Source: a virus. Taken from it: a stretch of 48,118 nt of DNA. Every line of letters starts with the position of its first letter. Position 1 is the stretch's first letter. Of this stretch, positions 1 to 12,641 are shown piece after piece. The translations under genes and the position numbers were made by a program. Location of the stretch: the IMG/VR virus record IMGVR_UViG_3300020472_000048, positions 1 to 48,118 of that record, one strand, 5' to 3'. Under the pieces are notes generated by a model. The model did no database searches. It was given only the letters and a program-made list of their open reading frames with translations, and was not told the DNA's origin.

Positions 1-1
1 T

Positions 2-626: not shown

Positions 627-627
627 T
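599..627 (+). promoter_or_regulatory. sigma70-type promoter TAGACG-N17-TATAAT
   Basis: The -35 TAGACG (599-604) and -10 TATAAT (622-627) are separated by exactly 17 bp and overlap the 3' end of the 438-626 gene. The predicted start is near 634, upstream of the 652 gene. The TAGAC- form of the -35 recurs in the cassettes at 1064, 5788 and 6201. Confidence 0.6.
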
Positions 628-651
628 AACAATGTAAGCAATTCAAACACC

Positions 652-840
652 ATGAACACAACTACAGGACTTACAGAAGATCAGTTGATGGATCTTAGTT
701 CATACATCACCTATCTTGTTACATCAGACGATGACATGCTTGTGGTTGACCATGAGATGTGTATTGATTACCTAGAGACACAGGACATTGACATCAATGA
801 TACTGTGATCGACCAAGTCCACAATTTACTGTTCCCATAA
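652..840 (+). CDS. hypothetical protein, 62 aa
   Basis: ATG start behind the leader AAGCAATTCAAACACC. An AAGCAATT leader also precedes the 1115 gene. The protein is acidic and includes the stretch LETQDIDINDTVIDQ. No family recognised. It is separated by 2 nt from the next gene, so the two are probably cotranscribed from the 599-627 promoter. Confidence 0.7.
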   Translation: MNTTTGLTEDQLMDLSSYITYLVTSDDDMLVVDHEMCIDYLETQDIDINDTVIDQVHNLLFP

Positions 841-842
841 CA

Positions 843-1043
843 ATGACTTATACTGACATTGAAACAATCTTCACTGAACTTAAGACTAAGTACCTTGCTG
901 AAGAGAAAAAGCATGAAATGGATCAAAACATCATGGGTACTCACATGAATGATCTTGATGAAGTGCTTGAGATTCTACATGGTATTGTAGACTATTCTCC
1001 TACAGATGAGGAGATCAATTATAACTCTAACTGGTACAGTTAG
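843..1043 (+). CDS. hypothetical protein, 66 aa
   Basis: Begins 2 nt after the previous stop and ends at TAG 1041-1043, just before a strong terminator. The 66-residue product is acidic and probably helical (TDIETIFTELKTKYLAEEKK) and contains no Cys. It is the last gene of the first operon. Function not recognised. Confidence 0.7.
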   Translation: MTYTDIETIFTELKTKYLAEEKKHEMDQNIMGTHMNDLDEVLEILHGIVDYSPTDEEINYNSNWYS

Positions 1044-1056
1044 ACAACTGTCACAC

Positions 1057-1081
1057 AAGGGGGTAGACACCCCCTTTTTTT
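1057..1081 (+). terminator. rho-independent terminator
   Basis: GGGGG (1059-1063), loop TAGACA, CCCCC (1070-1074), then seven T. It closes the operon ending at 1043. The loop sequence is also the -35 box of the promoter below, so one element stops one transcript and starts the next. Confidence 0.85.
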
Positions 1082-1092
1082 ATGTGTATAAT
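1064..1092 (+). promoter_or_regulatory. promoter TAGACA-N17-TATAAT with -35 in the terminator loop
   Basis: -35 TAGACA (1064-1069) is exactly the terminator loop. -10 TATAAT (1087-1092) follows the T-run with a 17-bp spacer. It drives the gene at 1115. The preceding AACTGTCACAC (1046-1056) matches the block upstream of the 5788-5816 promoter, so the two are related copies. Confidence 0.75.
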
Positions 1093-1114
1093 AAACACAT
1101 AAGCAATTTTCCCC

Positions 1115-1408
1115 ATGAACACTTACTATCTAAACGGTTTCCCTGTATCTTCTCCAAAAGTTATGACAACACTACTTGAAGAATTCATTGATTATGTTTA
1201 TTCATTCTACAATGTAGTAGATGGTCTTTATCCTGTATATGGATGCACCAAGAATAAGATCAAGTTAGCAACTTATGAGTATCTTGGTCAATGTGCTGGA
1301 GATAATCATTGGGAGTGGGGTGATGGTGATAGTGTTGATCGTGAGCATGTAAGAGACATCATGTTTGAAATGTTCCCTTCAATCTCTTATGCCAAAACTA
1401 ACTCTTAA
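1115..1408 (+). CDS. hypothetical protein, 97 aa
   Basis: ATG start about 20 nt downstream of the -10 at 1087-1092. The 97-residue product is rich in aromatic residues (YYLNGFPV, FIDYVYSFYNVV, HWEWGDGDSVDREHV) and looks globular, with no membrane segment. The 3' end overlaps the next gene by 20 nt in another frame. I do not recognise the family. Confidence 0.7.
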   Translation: MNTYYLNGFPVSSPKVMTTLLEEFIDYVYSFYNVVDGLYPVYGCTKNKIKLATYEYLGQCAGDNHWEWGDGDSVDREHVRDIMFEMFPSISYAKTNS

Positions 1409-1616
1409 AATTGATACATGGGGACGGGTTATCGGATCTGTCCTCATTGTTACATCATACTTTGTTGTCCTTCACATTTCTGCCAGAATAGGGGCAATGA
1501 TGTACCTAGCATCAAATCTAATATCCATACCCTATTTTGTACGGACAAAGGGATGGGACGTGGTGGTCATGATGACATTTCTTATCATTATATCACTCAG
1601 TAAGATCTTTAGTTGA
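1389..1616 (+). CDS. small integral membrane protein, 75 aa
   Basis: The start chosen is ATG 1389 (MPKLTLKIDTW), because the longer in-frame start at 1365 lies deeper inside the preceding gene. The protein has three hydrophobic segments, at about residues 11-28, 31-46 and 54-73, with little else. It resembles small three-helix membrane proteins I remember from cyanophages, which have no assigned function. Inner-membrane location is inferred. The stop overlaps the -35 of the promoter at 1613. Confidence 0.75.
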   Translation: MPKLTLKIDTWGRVIGSVLIVTSYFVVLHISARIGAMMYLASNLISIPYFVRTKGWDVVVMMTFLIIISLSKIFS

Positions 1617-1641
1617 CATATCGTAACATTTCCTGTATAAT
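1613..1641 (+). promoter_or_regulatory. consensus sigma70 promoter TTGACA-N17-TATAAT
   Basis: Both hexamers match the E. coli sigma70 consensus perfectly: TTGACA 1613-1618 and TATAAT 1636-1641, with a 17-bp spacer. It drives the cluster beginning at 1685. Such promoters in T4-like phages are recognised by unmodified host RNA polymerase (early class). Confidence 0.9.
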
Positions 1642-1642
1642 G

Positions 1643-1650
1643 TATAAATA
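1643..1650 (+). promoter_or_regulatory. T4-type late promoter motif TATAAATA
   Basis: An exact TATAAATA lies one base downstream of the early -10 at 1636-1641. In T4, this octamer is the -10 recognised by the gp55 late sigma factor. In AT-rich DNA chance matches occur, so dual early and late use is possible but not proven. Confidence 0.4.
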
Positions 1651-1684
1651 CTAACTAACTGTTCTTAAAAGGGGGTCACTTGCC

Positions 1685-1903
1685 ATGAAAACCATTACAT
1701 TAGAGAACGCAGAATTCGATCTGCTTACAAATTTATTAGTAGATCATTTAGAAGAAATTAGTGAGGATGAATTTTTTCATTCATCGTCACATGATGAATG
1801 TGTCAATAACATGGAAGTGACTAAGAATACAATACGCTCAATGCATTGTGCGTTAGAAGATGAGATTACATATACTGAACAGGACGCAGGTTGTACCTGC
1901 TAA
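1685..1903 (+). CDS. hypothetical acidic protein, 72 aa
   Basis: ATG start preceded by AAGGGGGTCACTTGCC, whose purine-rich block could serve as a ribosome binding site. The product is acidic (HLEEISEDEFF) and ends in DAGCTC with two closely spaced Cys. The stop TAA overlaps the next ATG (TAATG at 1901-1905), indicating coupling. First gene after the consensus promoter. Function unknown. Confidence 0.75.
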   Translation: MKTITLENAEFDLLTNLLVDHLEEISEDEFFHSSSHDECVNNMEVTKNTIRSMHCALEDEITYTEQDAGCTC

Positions 1904-2088
1904 TGAGTGATGCTGAGATAGATCAATTCATTATAGCATTTAAGTCTTTCATGGATCATGCGTCTGTGGAGGAACTTAACTATTTGCAACGTGAATCAAG
2001 AAGAAAGTACAATTTAGCATATCACACCTATATGGCACATGAATTAGGTGTGACAATGGATTATTATATGAGTGAGTTTAATGTATGA
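1903..2088 (+). CDS. hypothetical protein, 61 aa
   Basis: The start is ATG 1903 in the TAATG overlap. A TTG four codons upstream is less likely. The product is helical, with acidic and basic patches (DQFIIAFKSFMDHASVEELN) and many Tyr near the C-terminus. The stop overlaps the next start (ATGA at 2085-2088). No recognised family. Confidence 0.7.
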   Translation: MSDAEIDQFIIAFKSFMDHASVEELNYLQRESRRKYNLAYHTYMAHELGVTMDYYMSEFNV

Positions 2089-2264
2089 AAATGAATGAAC
2101 AGACCAAGTTAGTTTTTGCTATTGAACATATACTACACTTACAAGATTTAATAGAAGATAATAAGGAAGAGAAATATCTGTCAACGCATTTATTAGCATT
2201 TAAGGTAGAAGTAGAGAATCAACTACATGAGTTGAAAACTAAAAAGAAACGTGTTATAATGTAA
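2085..2264 (+). CDS. hypothetical helical protein, 59 aa
   Basis: A 59-codon frame starts at ATG 2085, overlapping the previous stop by ATGA, and ends at TAA 2262-2264. The product begins MKMNEQTKLVFAIEHIL, is predicted almost entirely helical with alternating charge, and ends in a basic tail (KTKKKRVIM). Coupling on its left side and codon use like its neighbours support it as real. Its 3' end holds the promoter for the next gene. Confidence 0.65.
   Translation: MKMNEQTKLVFAIEHILHLQDLIEDNKEEKYLSTHLLAFKVEVENQLHELKTKKKRVIM
2232..2260 (+). promoter_or_regulatory. promoter TTGAAA-N17-TATAAT
   Basis: -35 TTGAAA (2232-2237) and -10 TATAAT (2255-2260) with a 17-bp spacer, inside the last codons of the 2085-2264 gene. 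The predicted start is near 2267, ahead of the GTG-started gene at 2284. Confidence 0.6.
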
Positions 2265-2283
2265 TCAATTCACTTATGAAGAA

Positions 2284-2517
2284 GTGGCAAAAACATTATA
2301 CATAGTGGACTATTGGATTCCATTTCCTCAATCAGAATATGGTGGAGTAGTGAATGTCATTGCTGAAGATGATTCTGAAGCATTTGAACTACTTGCCAAT
2401 GAGGAACAATTCAATGAAGATTATGTTGACCTTATCATGCCTAACGTGATTAAGGCAACAAAATTAAATCTATCTGATGAATATGAGTCAGGTATCATAG
2501 ACGCATTTATTACTTAA
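2284..2517 (+). CDS. conserved cyanophage-type hypothetical protein, 77 aa
   Basis: The only sensible start is GTG 2284, since the nearby ATG at 2276 opens a nine-codon frame. The product begins MAKTLYIVDYWIPFPQSEYG and continues with an acidic region (IAEDDSEAFELLANEEQF). This N-terminal pattern is familiar from small proteins of T4-like cyanophages, but I know of no function. It has its own promoter at 2232-2260. It looks cytosolic and globular. Confidence 0.75.
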   Translation: MAKTLYIVDYWIPFPQSEYGGVVNVIAEDDSEAFELLANEEQFNEDYVDLIMPNVIKATKLNLSDEYESGIIDAFIT

Positions 2518-2521
2518 GGTT

Positions 2522-2689
2522 ATGGCAGAAAAACTATGGAGAGTAGAGCAACAATCTACTATGGGATGGGCATTGATTGATGAACGTGCCGTCCATCTAA
2601 CAAAAAAGCAAGCAACGATAGTATTAGAGAACGCAATGGCAGAAGGTATTAAACCGTCTGATCTTAGGGCAGTTCCAGATAAACTATAA
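2522..2689 (+). CDS. hypothetical protein, 55 aa
   Basis: ATG 2522 to TAA 2687-2689, which overlaps the next ATG (TAATGG). The product begins MAEKLWRVEQQSTMGWALID and ends PSDLRAVPDKL. It has an N-terminal beta-like segment followed by a helix containing TKKQATIVLENAM. Short proteins of this appearance recur in cyanophage early regions. Function unknown. Confidence 0.65.
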   Translation: MAEKLWRVEQQSTMGWALIDERAVHLTKKQATIVLENAMAEGIKPSDLRAVPDKL

Positions 2690-3219
2690 TGGGGTTATTC
2701 AATCCTTATAAGGGATTTGATATTATTGAGGTACAAAAGACACTTCCAATTTTTACCACGATCCCTAGAGACGCACCTAATATTCTACCATTAATTAAAC
2801 AATATCGTCAAGAAAATAGTGACAGTATTGAAACTAATGTAGTATGTAATTGGCGGTCAGATTGGATGGTTCAAACTGATGAGCGTTTCAATGAGTTTAA
2901 TGAGTGGATATTAAATGCCTGTAGTTTCGTATGTCAATATCATTTGAATACTCAGGTTACATTTAGTATTGCGAATATGTGGTTAATGATGTATGAGTCG
3001 GGTGACTATGCGATACCGCACGATCATTTCCCATATTGCTTAAGTGTTATATATTATGTTGATTGTGATGAGGATGCCGCCCCTACTACATTTGAGAATA
3101 GCATAGAGATACAACCTGAAGTTAATAAGTTGGTTATATTTCCTTCACAGTTATGCCATGAGGTAAAACAAACTGAAGGACGAAGAGTCACAGTATCCAT
3201 GAATTTAAATCAGTATTAA
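2689..3219 (+). CDS. 2OG-Fe(II) oxygenase-like protein, 176 aa
   Basis: The second half has the double-stranded beta-helix pattern of 2-oxoglutarate/Fe(II) dioxygenases. The motif AIPHDHFPYCLSVIYYV places H111-D112-H113 at the first metal-binding strand. It is followed by KLVIFPSQLCHEV with H157 as the distal His, and then R165/R166, which would bind 2-oxoglutarate. Family members hydroxylate proteins, nucleic acids or small molecules; the substrate here is unknown. It is one of three such enzymes in the window, with 7999 and 9609. The start overlaps the previous stop (TAATG). The fold call is good; the exact ligand assignment is uncertain because the motif is HDH rather than a clean HxD. Confidence 0.75.
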   Translation: MGLFNPYKGFDIIEVQKTLPIFTTIPRDAPNILPLIKQYRQENSDSIETNVVCNWRSDWMVQTDERFNEFNEWILNACSFVCQYHLNTQVTFSIANMWLMMYESGDYAIPHDHFPYCLSVIYYVDCDEDAAPTTFENSIEIQPEVNKLVIFPSQLCHEVKQTEGRRVTVSMNLNQY

Positions 3220-3221
3220 CA

Positions 3222-3593
3222 ATGTATGAACCACAAGTCGATGATTATGTCAAGTGGACTAACAAGTTAGGACAAGTCCATGAAGGGTGGGTATATTTTA
3301 AGGGTGATCCAGTAAACAATGCTTTAAGACGTAAACAGGGATGGAATGAAGTATCTCAGTATATTACAATAGAAATACACAGTTACCCTAAACCCGACAA
3401 TGTTTATTCGTCTGGCAAGTTTCACAGACATAGAAACGTACATTGTTTATTATTATGTAATAGAGAGTGTTGGGGGGAATTAGAATATATCAAGAATAGG
3501 AGAGACACTTACGAGGGGTGCAACGCTGCAACGCCCGATTCTAACACCTATGGATATAAAAGTCAAGAGGGACGGTATTCCGACATACAATGA
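3222..3593 (+). CDS. conserved phage hypothetical protein, 123 aa
   Basis: ATG start 2 nt after the oxygenase stop. The product begins MYEPQVDDYVKWTNKLGQVH and contains EGWVYFKGDPV and HRNVHCLLLCNRECWGELEY. The beta-rich start suggests a small SH3-like or OB-like barrel, but that is only an impression. Four Cys and several His (FHRHRNVHCLLLC) could bind metal. Similar proteins appear in cyanophages without known function. Probably cotranscribed with 2689. Confidence 0.7.
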   Translation: MYEPQVDDYVKWTNKLGQVHEGWVYFKGDPVNNALRRKQGWNEVSQYITIEIHSYPKPDNVYSSGKFHRHRNVHCLLLCNRECWGELEYIKNRRDTYEGCNAATPDSNTYGYKSQEGRYSDIQ

Positions 3594-3596
3594 GGT

Positions 3597-3604
3597 AATA
3601 AATA
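3597..3604 (+). promoter_or_regulatory. late-promoter-like motif AATAAATA
   Basis: Matches the NATAAATA late motif and lies just after the 3593 stop, 24 nt upstream of the small gene at 3628. It could make the following genes (3628, 3735, 3922) late-expressed. The match is weak evidence on its own in AT-rich DNA. Confidence 0.35.
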
Positions 3605-3627
3605 ATACTGTAAACATTTGTTAAGCA

Positions 3628-3735
3628 ATGGACTGGATAGTAACATTTAAGATGGTGGCAATGATACTGAGTGGGGTATCAGCGTTTAGTGTCCTATGGT
3701 TGACAATGATGATGTATATGGTAGAGGAAGAATAG
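3628..3735 (+). CDS. single-span membrane peptide, 35 aa
   Basis: ATG 3628 to TAG 3733-3735. The product is a short protein beginning MDWIVTFKMVAMILSGVSA, with one continuous hydrophobic stretch (about residues 8-31) and an acidic tail (VEEE). This is the layout of small phage membrane peptides. The leader TTAAGCA resembles the AAGCAATT leaders of other genes here. The stop overlaps a GTG that can start the next gene (TAGTG). Support is moderate because of its small size. Confidence 0.55.
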   Translation: MDWIVTFKMVAMILSGVSAFSVLWLTMMMYMVEEE

Positions 3736-3902
3736 TGCCGAGTAAAGAGTATAAGAAGTGGTTACTTGAACAGAGTAAGAAAATACTGAAAGCGAAATAC
3801 CCAGATGGTGAGCATATAGATGAGTGTAGCAAAGAATGGGTTGAGAAACAAGTGACTACACAGGGGATTGTAAAATATTATTCAGCGTATTTCACTACAT
3901 AA
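3735..3902 (+). CDS. hypothetical basic protein, 55 aa
   Basis: Two starts are possible: GTG 3735, in a TAGTG overlap with the preceding 35-aa gene, or ATG 3696, which would overlap that gene by 40 nt. GTG 3735 is preferred because it leaves the upstream frame intact. The product then begins MPSKEYKKWLLEQSKKILKA, a basic amphipathic helix, followed by YPDGEHIDE and a C-terminal KYYSAYFTT. No family recognised. Confidence 0.6.
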   Translation: MPSKEYKKWLLEQSKKILKAKYPDGEHIDECSKEWVEKQVTTQGIVKYYSAYFTT

Positions 3903-3921
3903 TATATCATAGAGAGTAACA

Positions 3922-4344
3922 ATGGGAATTACTACAAGTTGGTCAATTAATAATCTACATGTATTCAAAGCAAGTGGATATGTAGAAGAGATACATTGGA
4001 ACTGTGCTTGTGTTGAGTGGGAGGATATAGAGGTAGTTGGTAATGATACTACACAGGCAGGAATCACGACAGGATTTGTAGGAATTGGTAGTACAAAAAC
4101 AACTCAGAGATTTATTAAAGGGCGACGTGTTGCGAGTGGTAGATTAGAACTCGGAGGTAGTGGAGCATCACCTGATATTGCTTATAATGACCTTACTGAA
4201 GATACAGTTGTAGGATGGGTCAAAACAGGGTTGGGAACTACACAAGTGGCACGAATTCAGAATGATTTAAACCCTAATCCAGTCGTTACAAGCATAGAGA
4301 GTATTAAAGAGATAAGACAGGGTGATGCCTTGCCTTGGACTTAG
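3922..4344 (+). CDS. conserved phage protein, possibly virion-associated, 140 aa
   Basis: ATG start 19 nt after the previous stop. The N-terminus MGITTSWSINNLHVF is beta-like. The middle contains FVGIGSTKTTQRF, the VGIGST signature shared with the tail proteins encoded at 12643. The C-terminal part has YNDLTEDTVVGWVKTGLGTT and ends near GDALPWT. The LTExxVxxWVKxxLG...PW pattern matches a family of small uncharacterised phage proteins I recall as DUF7936. The VGIGST stretch hints at a structural role, but its place in the early region argues for caution. Confidence 0.65.
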   Translation: MGITTSWSINNLHVFKASGYVEEIHWNCACVEWEDIEVVGNDTTQAGITTGFVGIGSTKTTQRFIKGRRVASGRLELGGSGASPDIAYNDLTEDTVVGWVKTGLGTTQVARIQNDLNPNPVVTSIESIKEIRQGDALPWT

Positions 4345-4581
4345 TGTTTTGGTATAAGTTGATACAGAATATAATAAAAATAAGGTTTTAAATACCTTTA
4401 TAAATATAAAACTGTTTTTTATAAGGATACTATCCTTGAGTATCTTTGTGTACCTTTATAGGGTGTAAATGCCTCATAAATGGGTTGAGGTCTTGTGGAC
4501 TAAGCGAGCGTACCATGAGGAGCGAGATCTGTCAAGTCACAGGGCGAATTTTCGTGAAATCCTCATATACTGTGTTCGAGA
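4345..4581 (+). other. 237-nt gene-free stretch at the left edge of the accessory island
   Basis: No credible gene. It begins AT-rich, then becomes more G+C-rich at about 4480, marking the island boundary. Visible items are: AAGGT...ACCTT (4382-4398), a weak hairpin; a late-like TATAAATA at 4399-4406; a palindrome AAGGATACTATCCTT (4423-4437) without a T-run; and from 4564 the first copy of the CATATACTGTGTTCGAGA repeat. GAGATCTG occurs twice, near 4525 and 4595. No attachment-site-like repeat linking the two island ends was found by eye. Confidence 0.5.
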
Positions 4582-4720
4582 TTGACAGTGCCTTCGAGAT
4601 CTGCTATACTGTGTATGTTACATAGAAATCTCGACGAGATTATGGACTTAAGCGAACAGTATTACGACACATATACTGTGTTCGAGAATACAGCGTCATA
4701 CAGTACATATACTGTGTATG
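4564..4720 (+). repeat. partial duplication: CATATACTGTGTTCGAGA and TATACTGTGTATG units
   Basis: CATATACTGTGTTCGAGA occurs at 4564-4581 and again, identically, at 4670-4687. Each copy is followed by a second related unit ending in TATACTGTGTATG (4605-4617 and 4708-4720). The core TATACTGTGT is therefore present four times (4566, 4605, 4672, 4708). The first pair forms the promoter region, and the second pair lies inside the small gene. Confidence 0.85.
4582..4610 (+). promoter_or_regulatory. promoter TTGACA-N17-TATACT
   Basis: Perfect -35 TTGACA (4582-4587), 17-bp spacer and -10 TATACT (4605-4610). The predicted start is around 4617, immediately at or after the ATG at 4615. Translation would therefore be leaderless from 4615 or, more conventionally, begin at 4642. 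Confidence 0.8.
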
Positions 4721-4785
4721 ATGATGATGTGTACGCACGTCCAGATAATACTTATGAGGCACTTGCCAATAAGCATTATATGTGA
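4642..4785 (+). CDS. small Tyr/Asp-rich protein, 47 aa
   Basis: The start chosen is ATG 4642. ATG 4615 in the same frame would give 56 residues but sits only 4 nt after the -10 box, leaving no leader. The product begins MDLSEQYYDTYTVF, is rich in Tyr, Asp and Thr, and carries an internal repeat (TYTVFEN and TYTVYDD). That repeat comes from the duplication of the promoter-region sequence. Its last codons contain the -35 of the next promoter. It may be a small acidic early protein or simply a transcribed repeat. Confidence 0.5.
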   Translation: MDLSEQYYDTYTVFENTASYSTYTVYDDDVYARPDNTYEALANKHYM

Positions 4786-4791
4786 TATAAT
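4763..4791 (+). promoter_or_regulatory. promoter TTGCCA-N17-TATAAT
   Basis: -35 TTGCCA (4763-4768) is inside the 3' end of the small gene, and -10 TATAAT (4786-4791) directly follows its stop, with a 17-bp spacer. The predicted start is near 4798. No gene of useful size follows before the terminator at 4993, so the product is probably an RNA. Confidence 0.7.
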
Positions 4792-4797
4792 ATGCAC

Positions 4798-5020
4798 ATG
4801 TACGCACACATACATTATGGTGTGGTGGTGATGTGTGCCAGTGCATAAACTGTCACATGGGGAGTGACAGTTGGACAGGTGGCACTGTGCCAGTGAGATA
4901 AGTGGCACAGTCACACTTGACTTCTATTACAAATACAATTATCAGACTCCACCCCCATTATAGGAAGGATCAGGAATAAAACACCCTACCTTGTGCCACT
5001 TTGAGAACTGGCACTTTTTT
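4798..5020 (+). ncRNA. candidate structured non-coding RNA, about 220 nt
   Basis: The interval has a good promoter in front (4763-4791), a rho-independent terminator at its end (4993-5020) and no coding frame longer than about 18 codons. It contains strong hairpins: AACTGTCAC (4848-4856) with GTGACAGTT (4864-4872), and CTGTGCCA (4885-4892) with TGGCACAG (4903-4910). TGGCAC (4880-4885) can also pair with GTGCCA (4835-4840 or 4887-4892), giving alternative folds. No known RNA family is recognised. An 18-codon peptide (4792-4848, ending just before the first hairpin) could make this an attenuator-like leader instead. Function is unknown. Confidence 0.5.
4993..5020 (+). terminator. rho-independent terminator
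   Basis: GTGCCA (4993-4998), loop CTTTGAGAAC, TGGCAC (5009-5014), then six T (5015-5020). It is the one copy of the TTGTGCCA...TGGCAC dyad family with a T-run directly after the stem. It would end the transcript begun near 4798. Confidence 0.8.
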
Positions 5021-5021
5021 A

Positions 5022-5050
5022 TTGACTTTTGTTTTCTTATGGACTATAAT
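5022..5050 (+). promoter_or_regulatory. promoter TTGACT-N17-TATAAT
   Basis: TTGACT (5022-5027) overlaps the end of the terminator T-run region. TATAAT (5045-5050) follows after 17 bp. The predicted start is near 5057. There is no gene until 5269, leaving a leader of about 210 nt or a short RNA. Confidence 0.7.
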
Positions 5051-5160
5051 GAAGGTAGAACCTTTTTTTAAAAATAAAACATCGCAGGGGGCGTGGCGAA
5101 GATTTGTTCAGTAGAGCGACCCTGCTCCCTTCTTTGCTTGTTACACTTATTATAGTCCAT
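5039..5160. repeat. 122-bp element bounded by 12-bp inverted repeats containing -10 boxes
   Basis: ATGGACTATAAT (5039-5050) is repeated in perfect inverse orientation as ATTATAGTCCAT (5149-5160). Each arm contains a TATAAT pointing into the element, so two facing promoters are possible. Only the left one has a good -35 (TTGACT); the right one has at best TTGTTT at 16 bp. Inside are a T-run after AAGGTAGAACCTT and a GCAGGG (5084-5089)/CCCTGC (5120-5125) pair. There is no convincing gene inside. No flanking target duplication is visible, so a mobile element is not shown. Confidence 0.6.
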
Positions 5161-5182
5161 CCGAAGCATAAAACAACGCCCC

Positions 5183-5208
5183 TTGTGACACTTTTTAAAC
5201 TGGCACAA
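5183..5208. repeat. dyad repeat TTGTGACA-N10-TGGCACAA
   Basis: One of six dyads of consensus TTGTGMCA...TGKCACA in the island. The other copies are 4834-4857, 4991-5014, 5756-5779, 6584-6608 and 7177-7201. This one lies in the leader of the 5269 gene and has a CTTTTTAAAC centre identical to that of 6584-6608. The following GGCACACC (5211-5218) is also shared with 6617-6624. Confidence 0.75.
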
Positions 5209-5268
5209 CTGGCACACCAAACCTGACAACCTGCGGTTATAGTAAGTACATACAAATCAATCATTCAA

Positions 5269-5472
5269 ATGATTATTAACTCTGAAACACTTGGGTACTC
5301 ATTCTGGAAAGATCAGAACGGAGTGCTTATGAGTTCCCCTCTTTTTATTGATGGAACTACTGATGATGAGAATTCACTAGCGGTTGAAGATTGGCAGTGC
5401 TTAGGAGAATTAAGCATAGAGCAATCAAATTGCTTAGATGATATTATAAAGATCTTTTACCAATTTTCTTAA
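5269..5472 (+). CDS. hypothetical acidic protein, 67 aa
   Basis: ATG start in the leader motif CATTCAAATGA, which also precedes the ArdA-like gene at 6688. The product begins MIINSETLGYSFWKDQNGVL, is acidic (TTDDENSLAVEDW) and ends FYQFS. A TTATAG about 30 bp upstream (5237-5242) may serve as a weak -10. No shared domain is recognised. It is the first gene after the inverted-repeat element. Cytosolic, function unknown. Confidence 0.65.
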   Translation: MIINSETLGYSFWKDQNGVLMSSPLFIDGTTDDENSLAVEDWQCLGELSIEQSNCLDDIIKIFYQFS

Positions 5473-5479
5473 CAATTCA

Positions 5480-5512
5480 GGGGTTGCCAGATCCCCCCAA
5501 AACTGGCATAAT
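5480..5512 (+). promoter_or_regulatory. hairpin-loop promoter TTGCCA-N17-CATAAT
   Basis: GGGG (5480-5483) and CCCC (5493-5496) form a stem. The -35 TTGCCA (5484-5489) begins the loop. The -10 CATAAT (5507-5512) follows with a 17-bp spacer. Same plan as 1059-1092, 5782-5816 and 6194-6229. Drives the 5540 gene. Confidence 0.65.
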
Positions 5513-5539
5513 AAAAACAATTAAACAAATTCATTACAA

Positions 5540-5767
5540 ATGAACTTGACCCCACTTGGTACTAATCGCACCCAACTTGACCTAGCAGACGGGACGACAG
5601 TCCTTTTCAGTTACCAGACACCAGTCGCATGTCTGACTGATAACGGTTATTATAGGACTTCTAAGTATTGGTCAGTCACTACGACCAGACACATTAACAA
5701 GTGGTTAGGTGGTGTACTTGCCAAAGAGCAACCACAAGAGTATTTTGACTCACTATGTGCCAGTTGA
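5540..5767 (+). CDS. small DUF8033-like protein, 75 aa
   Basis: The product begins MNLTPLGTNRTQLDLADGTT and contains VLFSYQTPVACL, TSKYWSVTTTRHINKWL and a C-terminal YFDSLCAS. The order (short beta start, then SYxTPVA, then SxTTxRHINKWL) matches a family of small proteins common in cyanophages and their hosts that I recall as DUF8033. The family has no experimentally known role as far as I know. Codons are visibly richer in C and G than in the flanking phage genes. Its stop lies inside a TGTGCCA...TGTCACA dyad (5756-5779). Confidence 0.7.
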   Translation: MNLTPLGTNRTQLDLADGTTVLFSYQTPVACLTDNGYYRTSKYWSVTTTRHINKWLGGVLAKEQPQEYFDSLCAS

Positions 5768-5779
5768 CAAACTGTCACA
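5756..5779. repeat. dyad repeat TGTGCCA...TGTCACA over a stop codon
   Basis: Copy of the island dyad family with AGTTGACAAAC between the arms. It spans the stop of the 5540-5767 gene, so at RNA level it would form the 3'-end hairpin of that mRNA, although no T-run follows. A near copy of its right half (AACTGTCACAC) precedes the promoter at 1064. Confidence 0.7.
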
Positions 5780-5781
5780 CT

Positions 5782-5816
5782 CAGGGGTAGACAACCTCTA
5801 TCCCCTGACCTATAAT
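5782..5816 (+). promoter_or_regulatory. hairpin-loop promoter TAGACA-N17-TATAAT
   Basis: CAGGGG (5782-5787) pairs with CCCCTG (5802-5807). The -35 TAGACA (5788-5793) is the first part of the loop. The -10 TATAAT (5811-5816) is 17 bp further on. It is the closest relative of the 1059-1092 element and drives the 5821 gene. Confidence 0.75.
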
Positions 5817-5820
5817 AAAA

Positions 5821-6042
5821 ATGTTGAGAGGGAAACTTCTTCAACCGAGAGGGATAACATGGCGAGTGCCTGAATGGTCAGAGCGTAAACCCTCTCAACA
5901 CCTTTTCTTTAATTCATTCTTAAAAGACATGGACGACTTCTTATCTCCCGACGACCTACTTGAGAACTTCTTAAATGAAGAGTTTGAGTATCCAAGGGAA
6001 GAGATGGATGCAGAAACTGCAACCTTATTAAGAGACTTTTAA
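5821..6042 (+). CDS. hypothetical protein, 73 aa (start uncertain)
   Basis: The frame opens at ATG 5821, only 4 nt after the -10 box. That start implies leaderless translation; otherwise ATG 5929 (37 residues, MDDFLSPDDLLENFLNEEF) is used and 5823-5928 is leader RNA. The longer version reads plausibly as protein, with a basic aromatic first half (RGITWRVPEWSERK) and an acidic second half ending LLRDF. The stop overlaps the next ATG (TAATG). Family not recognised. Confidence 0.5.
   Translation: MLRGKLLQPRGITWRVPEWSERKPSQHLFFNSFLKDMDDFLSPDDLLENFLNEEFEYPREEMDAETATLLRDF
5823..5899. repeat. 10-bp inverted repeat GTTGAGAGGG/CCCTCTCAAC
   Basis: GTTGAGAGGG (5823-5832) and CCCTCTCAAC (5890-5899) are perfect inverse copies closing a 57-nt interior. 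A second GAGAGGG (5847-5853) could compete for the same CCCTCTC, allowing two alternative folds. The interior also has a small GGC-GAGT-GCC hairpin (5861-5870). The predicted transcription start falls at the first base of the repeat. Confidence 0.6.
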
Positions 6043-6188
6043 TGGCACTTTACGAAGGCATCATGCCCTGGCACATCCCTGTCTACTCATTCGACAAGGA
6101 AGACGCTAAGAAGGAAGTCGCTGCAGAGCAATTAGAACTAAACCTAACTGCACCCAGACGACGGACTTCTATCCTTAACGATTTCTAA
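6042..6188 (+). CDS. hypothetical protein, 48 aa
   Basis: ATG 6042 overlaps the previous stop (TAATG) and the frame ends at TAA 6186-6188. The product begins MALYEGIMPWHIPVYSFDKE, continues with a charged helix (DAKKEVAAEQLELN) and ends RRRTSILNDF. Translational coupling and the island's C-rich codon use support it despite the small size. It is followed within a few bases by the promoter hairpin at 6194. Function unknown. Confidence 0.65.
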   Translation: MALYEGIMPWHIPVYSFDKEDAKKEVAAEQLELNLTAPRRRTSILNDF

Positions 6189-6193
6189 AGGTT

Positions 6194-6229
6194 TATAGGG
6201 TAGACAGTCCTCACTCTACCCTATACAAT
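6194..6229 (+). promoter_or_regulatory. promoter TAGACA-N17-TACAAT embedded in an 11-bp inverted repeat
   Basis: TATAGGGTAGA (6194-6204) and TCTACCCTATA (6215-6225) are perfect inverse copies with a 10-nt loop. The -35 TAGACA is 6201-6206 and the -10 TACAAT is 6224-6229, with a 17-bp spacer. Here the boxes partly lie in the stem, so folding or protein binding would mask them. Drives the 6257 gene. Confidence 0.75.
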
Positions 6230-6256
6230 AAGTACATACAAACACGGGTTAACCCA

Positions 6257-6502
6257 ATGCTTTTTGAAATCATCTCTGACAATGTTGACTTTATGTTCAC
6301 AGACGTTGACTCAATCGGAACCAGCGACGTCAGTATATGTGTCAATCGGATCATTAAAGAGTATGCACCCTTTACTGAGGATTATGCATCCACACCAACC
6401 AGGCAGGTCATCCGACGCATGGTTAACAACTGCATTAACTCATTAAATGACCTACATGAGACGCAGTGTTGGGAGAACGCCTTCTACATTAGAGAGTCAT
6501 AA
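6257..6502 (+). CDS. hypothetical protein, 81 aa
   Basis: ATG start behind the leader AAGTACATACAAA, which is shared with the 5269 gene. The product begins MLFEIISDNVDFMFTDVDSI and contains a helical middle (TRQVIRRMVNNCINSLNDL), ending FYIRES. No known domain is recognised. It is a single-gene unit with its own promoter (6194-6229) and terminator (6491-6517). The G+C-rich codon style matches the island genes. Confidence 0.7.
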   Translation: MLFEIISDNVDFMFTDVDSIGTSDVSICVNRIIKEYAPFTEDYASTPTRQVIRRMVNNCINSLNDLHETQCWENAFYIRES

Positions 6503-6517
6503 GACTCTCTTTTTTTT
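6491..6517 (+). terminator. rho-independent terminator overlapping the stop codon
   Basis: AGAGAGTC (6491-6498), loop ATAA, GACTCTCT (6503-6510), then a T-run to 6517. The stop TAA (6500-6502) of the 6257 gene is in the loop. Strong and unambiguous. Confidence 0.9.
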
Positions 6518-6687
6518 GTCCATTTTTTTCTACCTATGGGCTCTACCTTCATTCTAGCACGGCAACCGCTTTTATGTTGCACCTTGTGCCACTTTTTAAA
6601 CTGTCACACTGAGTATGGCACACCTAAGAAACCAGAGTTATTATAGGTGCACGGGGAACAATAACCCCACAACAAAAGAACATTCAA
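6518..6687 (+). promoter_or_regulatory. ArdA-gene upstream region with dyad repeat and weak promoter
   Basis: No gene. TCTACCTTCATT (6542-6553) is the reverse complement of 5049-5060, in the inverted-repeat element. From about 6556 to 6624 it resembles 5152-5218, including the dyad TTGTGCCA...TGTCACA (6584-6608) and the shared GGCACACC. TATTAT (6639-6644) with ATGGCA (6615-6620) at 18 bp is a possible promoter. GGGG (6653-6656)/CCCC (6665-6668) may form a small leader hairpin. Confidence 0.5.
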
Positions 6688-7176
6688 ATGACTCTTTCAA
6701 CAGCAAACTGGACAACTGAGTGGTTAGAGGAGGTCCAGTATATGATCGCTCTCATTGAAGATCAGGCAGAAGACCCCACATGGTTCACAAGTGTTATCCG
6801 CACGACTGCTAACCTATTGCTAGAGGAGGAGGTCACCAGAGAGGAGGTCGAAGCATTTGTTGACAGATATTCCGCTTATGACCTTGACCACCTTGAGGAC
6901 TACATGACAGCATGCAATGACCTTGACGAAGATGTGGTCCATGCTTACATTGATGAGCAAGGCGACGTCGCATACGCTGAGAGCGTTTTAGAAGCATATC
7001 AAGGGCAATATGAGAGCATGGAAGACTTTGCAAGACAAATGGTTGACGACTGTGGTGATCTTCAGGACGTACCGCATTTCATAGAGAATGCAATTGACTG
7101 GGAAGTAATCGCAGAGCAATTCCATTGGGACTATAGCATCACCATTGACGGGTATGTTTTCAACAACAACGTTTAG
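6688..7176 (+). CDS. ardA: ArdA-like antirestriction protein, 162 aa
   Basis: The C-terminal half matches the ArdA signature: an acidic stretch, then AYQGQYESMEDFARQMVDD (about 103-121), DVPHFIENAIDWEVIAEQF (128-146) and a final IDGYVF. ArdA proteins are dimeric, highly acidic DNA mimics that occupy the DNA-binding groove of type I restriction-modification enzymes and block them. The overall composition here is strongly acidic, as expected. The length is close to the usual 165 or so. The first 80 residues are helical and do not show the usual N-terminal ArdA strand that I remember, so this may be a divergent or hybrid form. It sits alone between a dyad upstream and another directly after its stop. 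Confidence 0.72.
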   Translation: MTLSTANWTTEWLEEVQYMIALIEDQAEDPTWFTSVIRTTANLLLEEEVTREEVEAFVDRYSAYDLDHLEDYMTACNDLDEDVVHAYIDEQGDVAYAESVLEAYQGQYESMEDFARQMVDDCGDLQDVPHFIENAIDWEVIAEQFHWDYSITIDGYVFNNNV

Positions 7177-7236
7177 TTGTGACACTTGGGGAACTGGCAC
7201 ACGGTTCCCCCATTCGTTCCTTTATCCCCTTATAAT
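7177..7236 (+). promoter_or_regulatory. dyad repeat, GGGGAAC/GTTCCCC hairpin and -10 TATAAT
   Basis: The dyad TTGTGACA...TGGCACA (7177-7201) starts immediately after the ArdA-like stop. Overlapping it is GGGGAAC (7188-7194) with GTTCCCC (7204-7210). TATAAT at 7231-7236 is a clean -10, but no acceptable -35 is found at 17 bp (CCCCAT). An activator may be needed, or the real -35 is degenerate. Confidence 0.5.
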
Positions 7237-7265
7237 AAGTGAGTAACAAACAAACAAAGCACTCT

Positions 7266-7478
7266 ATGAATAGAGCAATCGGAACAGTAAGAGCAACAGA
7301 CACTAATGTCAAGGGGCACGTTCTGAGAGCATCATCAGGTGGCGGCATGACATTTACCAAAGCAGGTGGACTGGGTAAGTGTATGGTCAAAGACTTGGAC
7401 GCTGTAGTAGTTCGTGCGAAGGCACAGTACAGAGCAGACAGACGTGCCATGATCTTAGAGGGTAGTGCCACTTCGTGA
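7266..7478 (+). CDS. hypothetical basic Gly-rich protein, 70 aa
   Basis: The start chosen is ATG 7266 (MNRAIGTVRATDTNVKGHVL). An in-frame GTG at 7239 sits only 2 nt after the -10 box and would not be transcribed. The protein is basic with a Gly-rich middle (SSGGGMTFTKAGGLGK), followed by a helical end rich in Arg and Ala (VRAKAQYRADRRAM). It could bind nucleic acid, but no domain is recognised. Last gene of the G+C-richer island. Confidence 0.6.
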   Translation: MNRAIGTVRATDTNVKGHVLRASSGGGMTFTKAGGLGKCMVKDLDAVVVRAKAQYRADRRAMILEGSATS

Positions 7479-7681
7479 ATTGACACAGTTATTGGGGGTC
7501 GGGCGTTCGCCCCCCGTGCCGCCCTGAAAACGAAAGGAACCCCTAAGCTATAAAGTGTTACGGAAGCGAGGTCAATATTACAATGGAACTCAAATTTTTT
7601 TTCGCTGTGTAAAAACGCCCACAAGGTCGACTTGCGGATTATTAAGTTTTGATATATAATGGAAAAACAGAATACCACATA
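7479..7681 (+). other. 203-nt gene-free stretch at the right edge of the island
   Basis: Contains a GGGCGTTCGCCC hairpin (7501-7512) with no T-run, an eight-T run at 7595-7602, and short motifs reminiscent of glutamine-type RNA elements (judged insufficient). Composition changes back to AT-rich at about 7640. The promoter at 7632-7660 serves the next gene. No gene of more than about ten codons. Confidence 0.5.
7632..7660 (+). promoter_or_regulatory. promoter TTGCGG-N17-TATAAT
   Basis: TTGCGG (7632-7637) is a half-matching -35 and TATAAT (7655-7660) a perfect -10, with a 17-bp spacer. The predicted start is near 7667, 15 nt before ATG 7682. Confidence 0.5.
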
Positions 7682-7849
7682 ATGCTAAAAAATAACCCTG
7701 AGGAAAAACGCCCCATAGAAGTTGATACAGTATCTGGTGAGTATTATATAAGAATACCTGAATGGGTCGTTAATGACCAAGGTTGGTTTGAAGATACAGA
7801 AGTAAGTTTTAAAACAGATGGCGATGAACTCATTATCACAGAAGGTTAG
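7682..7849 (+). CDS. AbrB/MazE-like small DNA-binding protein, 55 aa
   Basis: The start is ATG 7682; a TTG at 7649 precedes the transcription start. The sequence GEYYIRIPEWVVNDQGWFED followed by TEVSFKTDGDELIITE has the pattern of a SpoVT/AbrB-type swapped-hairpin domain: G-x-hhIP, a short helix after P-x-W, then a beta strand ending in LIITE. Such proteins form dimers that bind DNA as regulators or antitoxins. No toxin partner is visible beside it, so a small transcriptional regulator, or a structural use of the fold, is more likely. It overlaps the next gene by 32 nt. Confidence 0.6.
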   Translation: MLKNNPEEKRPIEVDTVSGEYYIRIPEWVVNDQGWFEDTEVSFKTDGDELIITEG

Positions 7850-8012
7850 TACGTATCACATCTATCTAAGAGGAGAGTGTCTCTTCAAGGATCTTGATGA
7901 ATATGAATTTAAGTTGATATGGGGAAGAATATATGAATCATACTTTAGAGATGAACTTACTTATGAAGAAATTCAACTTGATGATGGTATAACAGAAGAT
8001 GCAAGTTATTGA
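7818..8012 (+). CDS. conserved small cyanophage-type protein, 64 aa
   Basis: The first ATG candidates are 7818 and 7824, both inside the 3' end of the preceding gene. No later Met exists before the conserved-looking part YHIYLRGECLFKDLDEYEF. The protein is acidic and ends DDGITEDASY. The pattern (Y/V)xxxECLFKxLDExEF is familiar from many small T4-like cyanophage proteins of unknown role. A related layout is seen in the 9302 protein. It overlaps the start of the next gene by 14 nt. Confidence 0.65.
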   Translation: MAMNSLSQKVSTYHIYLRGECLFKDLDEYEFKLIWGRIYESYFRDELTYEEIQLDDGITEDASY

Positions 8013-8493
8013 TAATTTTTTAGAAGAAGAATACTTTAAATTTCTTTATGATAAAATATCTGATCAAAAGAAATTTGGATGGCAGTTTCAAAGAAAGGTT
8101 GCCACCTATGAAGAAGATGAGAATAGAAATCTAAATCATTTTTACTGGGTACATAGTTTATATTATGATTACAAAGTAGAAAGTGAGCACTACGAAGACT
8201 TTCATCATTTGTTTAGGCAGTTAAAGGTACAGTTCTTACATAGGGCAAGATGTCTATTATTCGTGAATCAAGGAGTACAGCATATACATGATAGACATAT
8301 TGATACACCATGTACTAGTAATACTGCGTTAATCTATATGAATACAAATGATGGGTTTACTGAATTTGAAGATGGTGAGAGAGTTGATAGTGTGAAAAAT
8401 CGGTTGTTACTTTTTGACGGTTCAGTTCCTCACAGTAGCTCAACACCTACTAATACTAGAGAGAGAATGTTGATATCCGTAACCTATCTTTAA
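7999..8493 (+). CDS. 2OG-Fe(II) oxygenase, 164 aa
   Basis: The ATG overlaps the previous gene by 14 nt. The first line MQVIDNFLEEEYFKFLYDKI is the usual beta-helix start (V-I-D-N-F-L, then a helix) of prolyl-hydroxylase-like enzymes. The metal ligands are clear: HDRHIDTP gives H100 and D102, and SVPHSSS gives H145. RERMLISVTYL supplies the Arg (154 or 156) for 2-oxoglutarate. The full jelly-roll core is present and the length is normal for phage members. The substrate is unknown; related phage enzymes may modify proteins or DNA. It is coupled to the AbrB-like and acidic small genes. Confidence 0.82.
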   Translation: MQVIDNFLEEEYFKFLYDKISDQKKFGWQFQRKVATYEEDENRNLNHFYWVHSLYYDYKVESEHYEDFHHLFRQLKVQFLHRARCLLFVNQGVQHIHDRHIDTPCTSNTALIYMNTNDGFTEFEDGERVDSVKNRLLLFDGSVPHSSSTPTNTRERMLISVTYL

Positions 8494-8494
8494 G

Positions 8495-8523
8495 TTGACA
8501 TAGACTACATAATGGGATATAAT
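8495..8523 (+). promoter_or_regulatory. consensus sigma70 promoter TTGACA-N17-TATAAT
   Basis: TTGACA (8495-8500) and TATAAT (8518-8523) match the consensus perfectly with a 17-bp spacer. The predicted start is near 8530. It serves the glycosyltransferase gene at 8547 and, through coupling, 9302, 9460 and possibly 9609. Confidence 0.9.
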
Positions 8524-8546
8524 ATTTGTATAACATTACGTAGGTT

Positions 8547-9302
8547 ATGGCAAAAGGATTTACAGTTAAAGCGAAATCCCCTGTGGTAAAAAAAGAAGCA
8601 GAGTGGGATTTTGAGAAAGCAAAAGAACTCATCAAAGGTAAAACAGTAGTATTCTGTTTACCAGGTCGTGGAGTTTCATATACATTTTTAAAAAGTTTTG
8701 TACAGTTATGCTTCGATCTTGTCCAGGCGGGTGCTTCGATACAGATCTCACAGGATTATTCATCTATGGTGAACTTCGCTCGGTGCAAATGTCTCGGTGC
8801 GAATGTACTGAGAGGACCCGATCAGAAACCTTGGGACGGTAAGTTACAGTATGATTATCAGTTATGGATTGATAGTGATATAGTATTCAACTCTGAGAAG
8901 TTTTGGCAAGTGCTATTAATGGAGAAAGATCTTGCTGCTGGTTGGTATTGTACTGAAGACGGCAAAACCACCTCGGTAGCACACTGGTTAGAAGAAGATG
9001 ATTTCCGCACGAATGGTGGAGTAATGAATCATGAAACCATCGAAAGCATCTCGAAAAGAAAGAAACCATTTACCGTAGATTATACTGGTTTTGGTTGGTT
9101 ACTTATTAAGAATGGTGTATTCGAGCATGAGCAAATGCCTTATCCTTGGTTCGCTCCTAAGATGCAAGTCTTTGAAAGTGGCGAAGTACAGGATATGTGT
9201 GGTGAGGACGTTTCGTTCTGCCTAGATGCGAAGGAGGCAGGTTTTGAAATCTGGTGTGATCCTCGTGTTCGTGTAGGTCATGAGAAGACTAGGGTAATCT
9301 AA
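8547..9302 (+). CDS. glycosyltransferase (GT-A type), 251 aa
   Basis: After a basic N-terminus, KTVVFCLPGRGVSYTFLKSF starts the Rossmann-like half. LWIDSDIVF at about 107-114 supplies the D109-S-D111 metal/nucleotide-sugar motif. TGFGWLLIKNGVF is the acceptor-side strand. CGEDVSFCLDAKEAGFEIW with E220-D221, then VGHEK with H245, is the typical GT-A ending. Such phage enzymes transfer a sugar from a nucleotide sugar, possibly to modified DNA bases, virion protein or a host surface glycan; the target is not shown. It has its own perfect early promoter. The stop overlaps the next ATG (TAATG). Confidence 0.82.
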   Translation: MAKGFTVKAKSPVVKKEAEWDFEKAKELIKGKTVVFCLPGRGVSYTFLKSFVQLCFDLVQAGASIQISQDYSSMVNFARCKCLGANVLRGPDQKPWDGKLQYDYQLWIDSDIVFNSEKFWQVLLMEKDLAAGWYCTEDGKTTSVAHWLEEDDFRTNGGVMNHETIESISKRKKPFTVDYTGFGWLLIKNGVFEHEQMPYPWFAPKMQVFESGEVQDMCGEDVSFCLDAKEAGFEIWCDPRVRVGHEKTRVI

Positions 9303-10706: not shown

Positions 10707-12641
10707 ATGCCATATACACAGTTTTCCGACCTTGATTTCGGTCAAATTAAGACACAAATACGAAATTATCTTCAATCAAACTCAAATTTCACTGATTTTG
10801 ACTTTGAAGGATCAAATTTCTCTGTTTTAATTGATACTTTAGCATATAATACGTATATTAACTCATTTAATGCGAATTTGGCAGTAAATGAGGTATTTTT
10901 AGACTCAGCAACTATAAGAGAAAATGTAGTTTCGTTAGCAAGAAACATTGGATATGTTCCTCGTTCCGTTACTTCATCAAAAGCAACTATAAGTTTTCAA
11001 GTAAGAATAGAAGATACTACTGCTACAATCACTCATCTTACGCTAAATCCTGGTTTAGTGTGTGTTGGTAGTGCAAATGATACTTCATATAGATTCTCAA
11101 TAACAACTCCAGTAACATCTAGAGTATATACTGATGCTTCAGGGAATAGGGTATCTGATTTTGAGGTAGATGTCATTCAAGGTACATATTTAACAAGTAA
11201 TTTTGTTGCTAGAATACCCTCTGATCAGAAATTTATCTTAGATAATGCTCAAATTGATACTTCAACGATCAAGGTAAATGTACAAAATTCTCAAATTGGT
11301 AGTCTTGGTAGAGAATTTACAAAAGTTGACAATATTTTAAATTTGAATAAGGATTCTGAAATCTATCTATTACAAGAAATTCAGGATGAAAGAGTTGAAA
11401 TATTGTTTGGTGATGGATATTTTGGTAAGCAACTAACAAATGATGATATTATTACTGTTCAGTACATTGTTAGTAATGGTCCTACTAGTAATGGAGCAAG
11501 TGTTTTTGACTTCCAAGGATCATTTAGTAGACCTGATGGTGTTCTAATAAGACCAATCGCTGCTGTAGATGTAACAACTGTCAGACCTGCCCGTAACGGT
11601 TCCTACAACGAAGATATAGCATCAATCAAGTATTTGGCTCCTAGACTGTATTCGGCACAGTACAGGGCGGTTACACCAAGGGATTATGAAGCAATAATTA
11701 AGACAATATACCCTGCAACTGAATCAATTGCTGTTGTTGGTGGAGAAGAACTATCACCTCCACAATTCGGTAAGGTACAGATCAGTATTAAACCAAAAAA
11801 TGGTACTTATGTCTCTGATTTTGATAAGCAACAGATTAAAAACAAATTAAAGAGTTACGCTATTGCTGGTATAAACTCTGAAATTATTGATCTTAAAATG
11901 CTATATGTTGAGATTGATTCAACGGTTTACTACAATACTTCACAAGTTAGTGATTCTGCCACACTTAAATCATTAATAATAAATTCACTTGAGACTTATG
12001 GTAATACAGTGGATATTAATAAGTTTGGTGGTAGATTTAAATATAGTAAAATTAATCAACTTATTGATAGGGTTGATGATGGAATCACCTCTAACATTAC
12101 AAAAGTGAAGATTAGAAGGGATTTGAAGGCATTAATTAATCAATTTGCTCAATATGAACTGTGTTTTGGTAATAAATTCCATATTAATCCAGAAGGATAT
12201 AATATTAAGAGTACTGGATTCTATATTTCTGGATGGAAAAAAGTTGTTTATTTGACTGATATTCCAAATACCAATGAAAATGGTAAATTAGATAATAGTG
12301 AAAAGGGTGTTATTTGTATTGTTTCTAAGGATACTGATGATCAAATGAAAATCGTTGCCAAGGATATTGGTATAGTTGATTATAAAAAGGGTGAAATCAT
12401 ACTTAACACTATAAACATAACATCTACAATTGCTGCTAACAATCTAGTTGAAATTCAGGCGTTTCCTGACTCTAATGATGTTATTGGATTGAAGGATTTA
12501 TACCTAAAATTTGATACATCTAATAGTACGATAAATATGGTTAAAGATGTAATTGCTTCGGGTGAAGATGTATCAGGCGTTGTATTCTCTAGAGATTATT
12601 ACACTTCAAGTTATTCTAACGGAACACTAGAAAGAAAGTAG
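10707..12641 (+). CDS. 6: baseplate wedge protein gp6
   Basis: 644 residues (T4 gp6 is 660). The N-terminus has FSDLDFGQIKTQIRNYLQSN, then LIDTLAYNTYINSFNANLAV NE-type and ENVVSLARNIGYVPRSVTSS, the hallmark of gp6/gpJ-like wedge proteins. Middle landmarks include the VEILFGDGYFGKQL motif and the LAPRLYSAQYRAVTPRDYEA domain. gp6 dimers form the continuous inner ring of the T4 baseplate and join neighbouring wedges. Followed by the giant gene after one base. Confidence 0.95.
   Translation: MPYTQFSDLDFGQIKTQIRNYLQSNSNFTDFDFEGSNFSVLIDTLAYNTYINSFNANLAVNEVFLDSATIRENVVSLARNIGYVPRSVTSSKATISFQVRIEDTTATITHLTLNPGLVCVGSANDTSYRFSITTPVTSRVYTDASGNRVSDFEVDVIQGTYLTSNFVARIPSDQKFILDNAQIDTSTIKVNVQNSQIGSLGREFTKVDNILNLNKDSEIYLLQEIQDERVEILFGDGYFGKQLTNDDIITVQYIVSNGPTSNGASVFDFQGSFSRPDGVLIRPIAAVDVTTVRPARNGSYNEDIASIKYLAPRLYSAQYRAVTPRDYEAIIKTIYPATESIAVVGGEELSPPQFGKVQISIKPKNGTYVSDFDKQQIKNKLKSYAIAGINSEIIDLKMLYVEIDSTVYYNTSQVSDSATLKSLIINSLETYGNTVDINKFGGRFKYSKINQLIDRVDDGITSNITKVKIRRDLKALINQFAQYELCFGNKFHINPEGYNIKSTGFYISGWKKVVYLTDIPNTNENGKLDNSEKGVICIVSKDTDDQMKIVAKDIGIVDYKKGEIILNTINITSTIAANNLVEIQAFPDSNDVIGLKDLYLKFDTSNSTINMVKDVIASGEDVSGVVFSRDYYTSSYSNGTLERK

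Follow-up and report, generated by a model that had tools for sequence, protein, structure and literature searches.

The stretch of DNA analysed here (the window) is a 48,118-base IMG/VR record whose left 10 kb holds many small genes, with a gp6-like baseplate gene (10707-12641) downstream of them. The phage record closest to it is AG-345-F15, a Salacisavirus in the family Kyanoviridae. The equivalent place in P-SSM2, S-SSM7, ACG-2014f, P-HM2 and Syn30 is a gene-rich region adjoining gp25/gp6, bordered in several of these phages by tail-fibre genes, and the promoter sites described below therefore fall within a T4-like cyanophage's hyperplastic region, which is presumably an early one. One of the small genes, ORF 6688-7176, matches the ArdA antirestriction protein (Pfam E 1.8e-9). 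A tRNA scan found no tRNA, and an Rfam search of 4300-7700 returned nothing credible at either the gathering threshold or E<=1.

Four plus-strand sites at which a hairpin accompanies a promoter, first picked out in a preliminary description of this DNA, could all be located, and in each the -35 and -10 are separated by a 17-bp spacer. At the first, an intrinsic-terminator hairpin (AAGGGGG..CCCCCTT followed by a T-run, 1057-1080; MFE -13.2) places the -35 (1064-1069) of a TAGACA-17-TATAAT promoter (1064-1092) in and beside its loop; the inverted repeat itself (1057-1076) is 8 bp long, and 1057-1080 with its -35 is a composite terminator/promoter, predicted to drive ORF 1115-1408 (T4-GC 82 family). 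At the second (5480-5512), GGGG/CCCC and TGCCAG/CTGGCA pairings (the latter an inverted repeat of 6 bp, 5485-5508) accompany a TTGCCA-17-CATAAT promoter (5484-5512) upstream of ORF 5540-5767. The third is a TAGACA-17-TATAAT promoter (5788-5816) with a 7-bp hairpin (CAGGGGTAGA..TCTATCCCCTG, 5781-5808; MFE -15.4, z -3.6) that covers almost the entire spacer and includes the -35 (5788-5793). It is followed at 5824-5900 by a structured leader, formed by the pairing of GTTGAGAGGG and CCCTCTCAAC over 57 nt, which yielded no tRNA and no Rfam match. At the fourth (6194-6229), an 11-bp perfect inverted repeat (6194-6225) overlaps a TAGACA-17-TACAAT promoter (6201-6229) upstream of ORF 6257-6502. The combination of a G+C-rich hairpin and a T-run that marks an intrinsic terminator is found at 1057-1080 only, the T-run being absent from the 5480, 5781 and 6194 hairpins. 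A candidate hairpin family of the form GGGTAGAC..TCTAYCCC was discarded, as its strict pattern matched the window site alone.

When formalised as a -10 with at least 5/6 matches to TATAAT, a -35 with at least 4/6 matches to TTGACA, a 17-bp spacer and a perfect stem with at least four G-C pairs overlapping the -35, this arrangement is found at exactly the four sites in 1-9000, with none on the minus strand and none in 10001-48118. Dinucleotide shuffles of the window's first 9 kb contain a mean of 0.06 such sites (maximum 2 in 100) versus the four observed, an excess over chance. The formalised criterion was fixed after the sites had been seen, unlike that of the test on other phages, and we therefore put the weight on the other genomes.

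The class is defined by a 22-bp dyad, GTGMCASTT-N4-AASTGKCAC, which the preliminary description had missed. A repeat search of the window recovered nine copies of a 22-nt element, the dyad, and allowing up to 3 mismatches 11 dyads are found against 0.14 expected. It lies directly upstream of two of the four sites described above, at 1033-1054 (2 mismatches, preceding the promoter at 1064-1092) and at 5757-5778 (an exact match, preceding that at 5788-5816). At the class position no dyad is recognisable for either the 5480 or the 6194 site; the 5480 spacer is, though, similar to a P-SSM2 sequence (L181:29766-29796) in which the GGGG/CCCC pairing is kept and the dyad is present. On the plus strand of the window the distance from the first base of a dyad to the -10 is 52-54 for the copies at 570, 1033, 4993, 5185, 5757, 6586 and 7179. 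The copy at 570-591 (1 mismatch) is embedded in the end of ORF 438-626 and with a -35-like sequence (599-604) and a -10 (622-627) would drive ORF 652-840, an operator/promoter unit resembled by sequences in P-SSM2 (L181:23990) and AG-345-F15 (L186:22401), while that at 7179-7200 (+) precedes a TATAAT (7231-7236) predicted to drive ORF 7266-7478. Three of these copies have a -10 on either side: 4993-5014 (plus-strand TATAAT at 5045-5050 and minus-strand TATAAT at 4957-4962, both at offset 52), 5185-5206 (plus-strand TATAGT at 5238-5243, predicted to drive ORF 5269-5472, and minus-strand TATAAT at 5149-5154) and 6586-6607 (plus-strand TATTAT at 6639-6644, upstream of the ardA-like ORF, and minus-strand TAGAAT at 6551-6556).

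Several other arrangements were seen around these copies. Three tandem dyads (4835-4856, 4864-4885 and 4887-4908; 1 mismatch each), spaced 29 and 23 bp apart, have no -10 at the class spacing and may be a site for titration, or else a promoter cluster that has decayed. The convergent promoters linked to the 4993 (plus) and 5185 (minus) operators flank about 100 bp without an assigned gene (5045-5154), in whose minus strand a GC hairpin and T-run give the appearance of a short RNA. A predicted initially transcribed sequence TA(T/G)AATGAAGGTAGA is common to three operator-linked promoters in two phages, at 5045 (+) and 6551-6556 (-) in the window and at L183:10256 (-). Further upstream, repeated (C)ATATACTGTGT units in 4564-4723 (at 4564, 4670 and 4706, with a similar one near 4600) include -10-like sequence.

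The geometry seen in the window recurs across viral contigs, in which a scan for exact dyads recovered at least 120 stretches. The -10 box begins 52-53 bp after the first base of the dyad: for 215 exact dyads among the matches listed, nearly all of them in viral contigs, TATAAT-like hexamers are by far most frequent at offset 52-53 (60 cases on one strand, 74 on the other, versus ~2 per other offset). Similarly, in the window together with S-SSM7, P-SSM2, ACG-2014f, P-HM2, Syn30, S-PM2, Syn9 and AG-345-F15, a -10-like hexamer is found at offset 51-54 on at least one side of 82 of 86 dyads, versus 10-17 of 86 at equally wide control offsets. The dyad stands at a fixed helical position from the -10, as operators of activator-dependent promoters do, with 45 and 32 matches at offsets 52 and 53 where the background is 1.2 per offset. 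With the -10 set at -12 to -7, the centre of the dyad comes near -54. The -35 is weak overall (mean match of 3.4/6, versus 2.4 in shuffled sequence), but its TT/TA-type start is kept, TTGN/TAGR being most frequent at offset 30, which is 8 bp beyond the dyad. That the dyad is instead the operator of a repressor shutting off early genes appears unlikely; dyads are typical of repressor and activator sites alike, and promoterless copies such as 4835-4908 and arrays in other contigs could titrate a protein, but a site near -54 that overlaps neither the -35 nor the -10, a spacing fixed to about 1 bp and weak -35 boxes are all more usual for activators.

In three annotated genomes a start codon lies 76-92 nt downstream of 44 of 54 dyads (random 4.5-6%) and the stop codon of the preceding gene falls inside the dyad in 28 of the 54. 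A further reading is that the dyads serve the recombination or insertion of mobile gene cassettes, with the -10 spacing merely hitch-hiking. The position of dyads at cassette boundaries in hyperplastic regions, and the overlap of many ACG-2014f dyads with the preceding stop codon, would suit such a role. However, the -10 spacing is constant over unrelated cassettes and lineages, and a single dyad can serve two divergent -10s, which makes recombination sites the least probable of the explanations considered.

Of 281 distinct exact dyads, 224 have non-complementary bases (G..G or C..C) at the inner S positions, and at the M/K positions the two half-sites change independently of each other, features which together rule out the dyad as an RNA hairpin. 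On the promoter strand G..G (154) is preferred to C..C (91). As the half-sites do not covary, the dyad is best read as a DNA operator with an orientation preference, and selection for a stem does not fit. Nor do the hairpins themselves show strict covariation, which the preliminary description had seen in the differing stems of the four sites; the stems differ because the sites are separate and mostly non-orthologous.

The hairpins belong to the spacer between dyad and -10, which was folded for 334 distinct operator-linked promoters. The mean folding energy is -5.5 kcal/mol compared with -4.0 kcal/mol in dinucleotide shuffles, and 68 of the 334 spacers form a hairpin with an MFE of -10 kcal/mol or lower versus 19.3 (maximum 26) in shuffles, an excess from which we infer that hairpins are selected in a minority of class promoters. 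Among 89 spacer hairpins at -8 or lower, 24 carry a T-rich tail (terminator type, like 1057-1080), 35 have their end within 4 nt of the -10 (as at 5781-5808), and the other 30 belong to neither type. Even orthologous genes can differ in this respect: the window and S-SSM7 both have an operator and hairpin at T4-GC 82, with unrelated stems (AAGGGGGTAGACACCCCCTT and GGGCAGTTGATATTCAATATCACTGCCC, respectively), and no operator-hairpin block is found directly upstream of the T4-GC 82 gene in P-SSM2, AG-345-F15 or P-HM2. The most economical reading is that spacer hairpins terminate or trim the upstream transcript and would thereby insulate each cassette; cyanobacteria are not known to have Rho. The full-spacer hairpins might conceivably play a direct promoter role. 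That a cruciform or RNA hairpin makes these promoters sensitive to supercoiling is nevertheless very unlikely. The excess of operator-to--10 hairpins over shuffles and the number of strong ones ending next to the -10 could be expected of it, but about 80% of class promoters lack a strong hairpin, and the T-tailed fraction needs no promoter role since it is of terminator type. For the supercoiling or cruciform control suggested earlier there is no indication, the strongest hairpins with T-runs being ordinary intrinsic terminators and the dyad lacking stem covariation. What survives of the proposed unnamed promoter class at single-gene cassettes is the class itself and its enriched, sequence-variable hairpins. 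The hairpin as defining element does not survive, a strong one being present in only about 20% of promoters and the 5480 and 6194 sites being without a recognisable dyad.

The dyad is common to P-SSM2, P-HM2, S-PM2, Syn9, Syn30, S-SSM7 and ACG-2014f, and homologues of the ArdA-like ORF are present in many of the viral contigs that bear it. Scans of T4, P-SSP7, Ma-LMM01, S-CBS1, S-SM2 and S-TIM5 recovered none, S-SM2 being almost without recognisable sites. S-TIM5 contains a related, diverged dyad (roughly NRGYCASTT) at 162-171 kb, with a -10 at 51-54 in 7 of 8 copies and 1 of 8 at a control offset; as the variant pattern, with 2 mismatches allowed, derives from sites picked because they had the -10, the result is only suggestive of a diverged operator in the same geometry. 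Among bacterial contigs, 44 contain an exact dyad, which rarely has a -10 at 52-53; only contig L168, binned as Flavobacteriales TMED113, shows a perfect TATAAT at that distance. In L168 TATAAT follows three dyads at offset 52, and the contig is for this reason probably mis-binned cyanophage DNA. In cyanobacterial genomes (L147, L154, L165 and L166), GTGACAGTT-N4-AAGTGTCAC stands beside a repeated GTGGGAAATTC..TTCCCAC without a spaced -10, and is probably an unrelated element. Arrays of operator plus TTGACA units with a period of ~57-62 bp and no clear -10 occur in L077, L034 (IMGVR_UViG_3300008113_001711) and L039; the second of these, a 21-kb contig, contains 31 dyads (<=1 mismatch), and L039 is another contig with a near-identical array.

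The protein that reads the dyad could be encoded by the phage or by the host. No DNA-binding regulator domain was detected with Pfam in 62 P-SSM2 early-region proteins or in the conserved early families checked, and for that reason the predicted factor could be a host protein; a search for transcription factors by conservation profile combined with Pfam/PHROGs likewise gave no candidate. Small phage DNA-binding proteins are often missed by domain searches. A host transcription factor exploited by the phages from the first minutes, as PhoB is elsewhere, would answer to the requirement that early promoters act before phage proteins exist, and to the lack of a recognised phage DNA-binding protein, and has a parallel in the binding of host PhoB to some S-PM2d promoters (PMC10976474). 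However, the dyad is at chance level in the host family (7 matches with <=1 mismatch in 201 Cyanobiaceae genomes versus ~11 for a reversed control pattern), which led us to reject a host operator, and in S-TIM5, likewise a phage of marine Synechococcus, the operator seems to have diverged. A host factor is the less likely reading. The simplest reading of these patterns is a phage-encoded, lineage-specific factor, given that in a distant relative the operator seems to have diverged while the geometry stayed the same.

We consider it probable, from sequence evidence, that these are early-promoter cassettes of activator type, with an operator near -54 and insulating hairpins at single-gene boundaries. 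A full cassette would begin with the stop codon of the preceding small gene, followed by the 22-bp dyad, whose centre would lie at roughly -54 relative to the predicted start. The 30-bp spacer would frequently hold a hairpin or terminator; next would come a weak -35 and a good -10, and finally a start codon ~17-20 nt beyond the predicted transcription start. A dimeric factor, most likely phage-encoded, would bind the dyad and recruit or stabilise host sigma-70-type RNA polymerase at promoters with a weak -35, while spacer hairpins would stop or trim the upstream transcript, and each cassette would be expressed separately. Repetition of the boundary would, in addition, make it easier for homologous recombination to exchange cassettes. 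More tentatively, at slightly less than even odds, marine T4-like cyanophages may share an early regulon under a phage-encoded dimeric regulator whose operator specificity drifts by lineage (GTGMCASTT in many Kyanoviridae and something close to NRGYCASTT in S-TIM5), the operator-terminator-promoter block forming the standard boundary of exchangeable single-gene takeover cassettes. Because a rigidly placed operator is common to several laboratory-model cyanophages, the question of cyanomyovirus early/middle control becomes directly testable. The operator would also allow the early regulon to be predicted from sequence and offers a promoter-based route to small, mostly uncharacterised takeover genes, of which one here is the ArdA-like antirestriction gene.

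The dyad is not described in the passages searched on S-PM2d psbA motifs, PhoB-bound promoters and Ma-LMM01, nor is it known to be part of the PeSL description, and within those sources the dyad-based promoter class looks undescribed. PeSL (promoter-early stem-loop) elements of T4-type phages were reportedly set out by Arbiol in 2010 and Comeau in 2014. In secondary description they combine an early sigma-70 promoter with a stem-loop or terminator, are repeated between small genes of hyperplastic regions and have been suggested to mediate gene shuffling, and the architecture of the cassettes found here resembles theirs; PeSL-like features are given as sparse in the S-PM2 region studied (PMC4503421). 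The sigma-70-type promoters of the class likewise lie in a hyperplastic region between tail-fibre genes and gp25/gp6, their early timing being presumed. A stem-loop joined to the promoter is seen at 1057-1080, 5781-5808 and 6194-6225 and in an enriched minority of the class (68/334), and is absent from most. Compared with PeSL as known from that secondary description, the constant part here is a 22-bp dyad at a fixed upstream distance, and the stem-loop is optional and sits within the spacer, where it encloses or abuts the -35.

Like the class, T4 middle (MotA/AsiA) promoters pair a good -10 with a weak -35 and have a protein-binding motif upstream. That motif, the MotA box, is short, asymmetric and placed at -30, whereas the class has a 22-bp dyad near -54 that ends ~8 bp above the -35. 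The class does not qualify as a T4 middle promoter, in which a MotA box replaces the -35 and MotA/AsiA are encoded; cyanomyoviruses are without alt, modA, motA and asiA, and their early/middle control has been described as unclear (PMC2984593). CRP/FNR- and NtcA-type activators, too, have a palindromic site that stands at a fixed helical position upstream of their sigma-70 promoter. Their motifs are TGTGA-N6-TCACA (CRP/FNR) and GTA-N8-TAC (NtcA), with activator sites centred about -41 or -61. The dyad differs from these in sequence and in its centre near -54, and its consensus contains no GTA-N8-TAC. Finally, the cyanophage promoters with a PhoB Pho-box likewise illustrate control from an upstream operator, but through another motif, a host protein and few genes, induced by phosphorus limitation (PMC10976474), whereas here an inverted repeat stands before dozens of early small genes.
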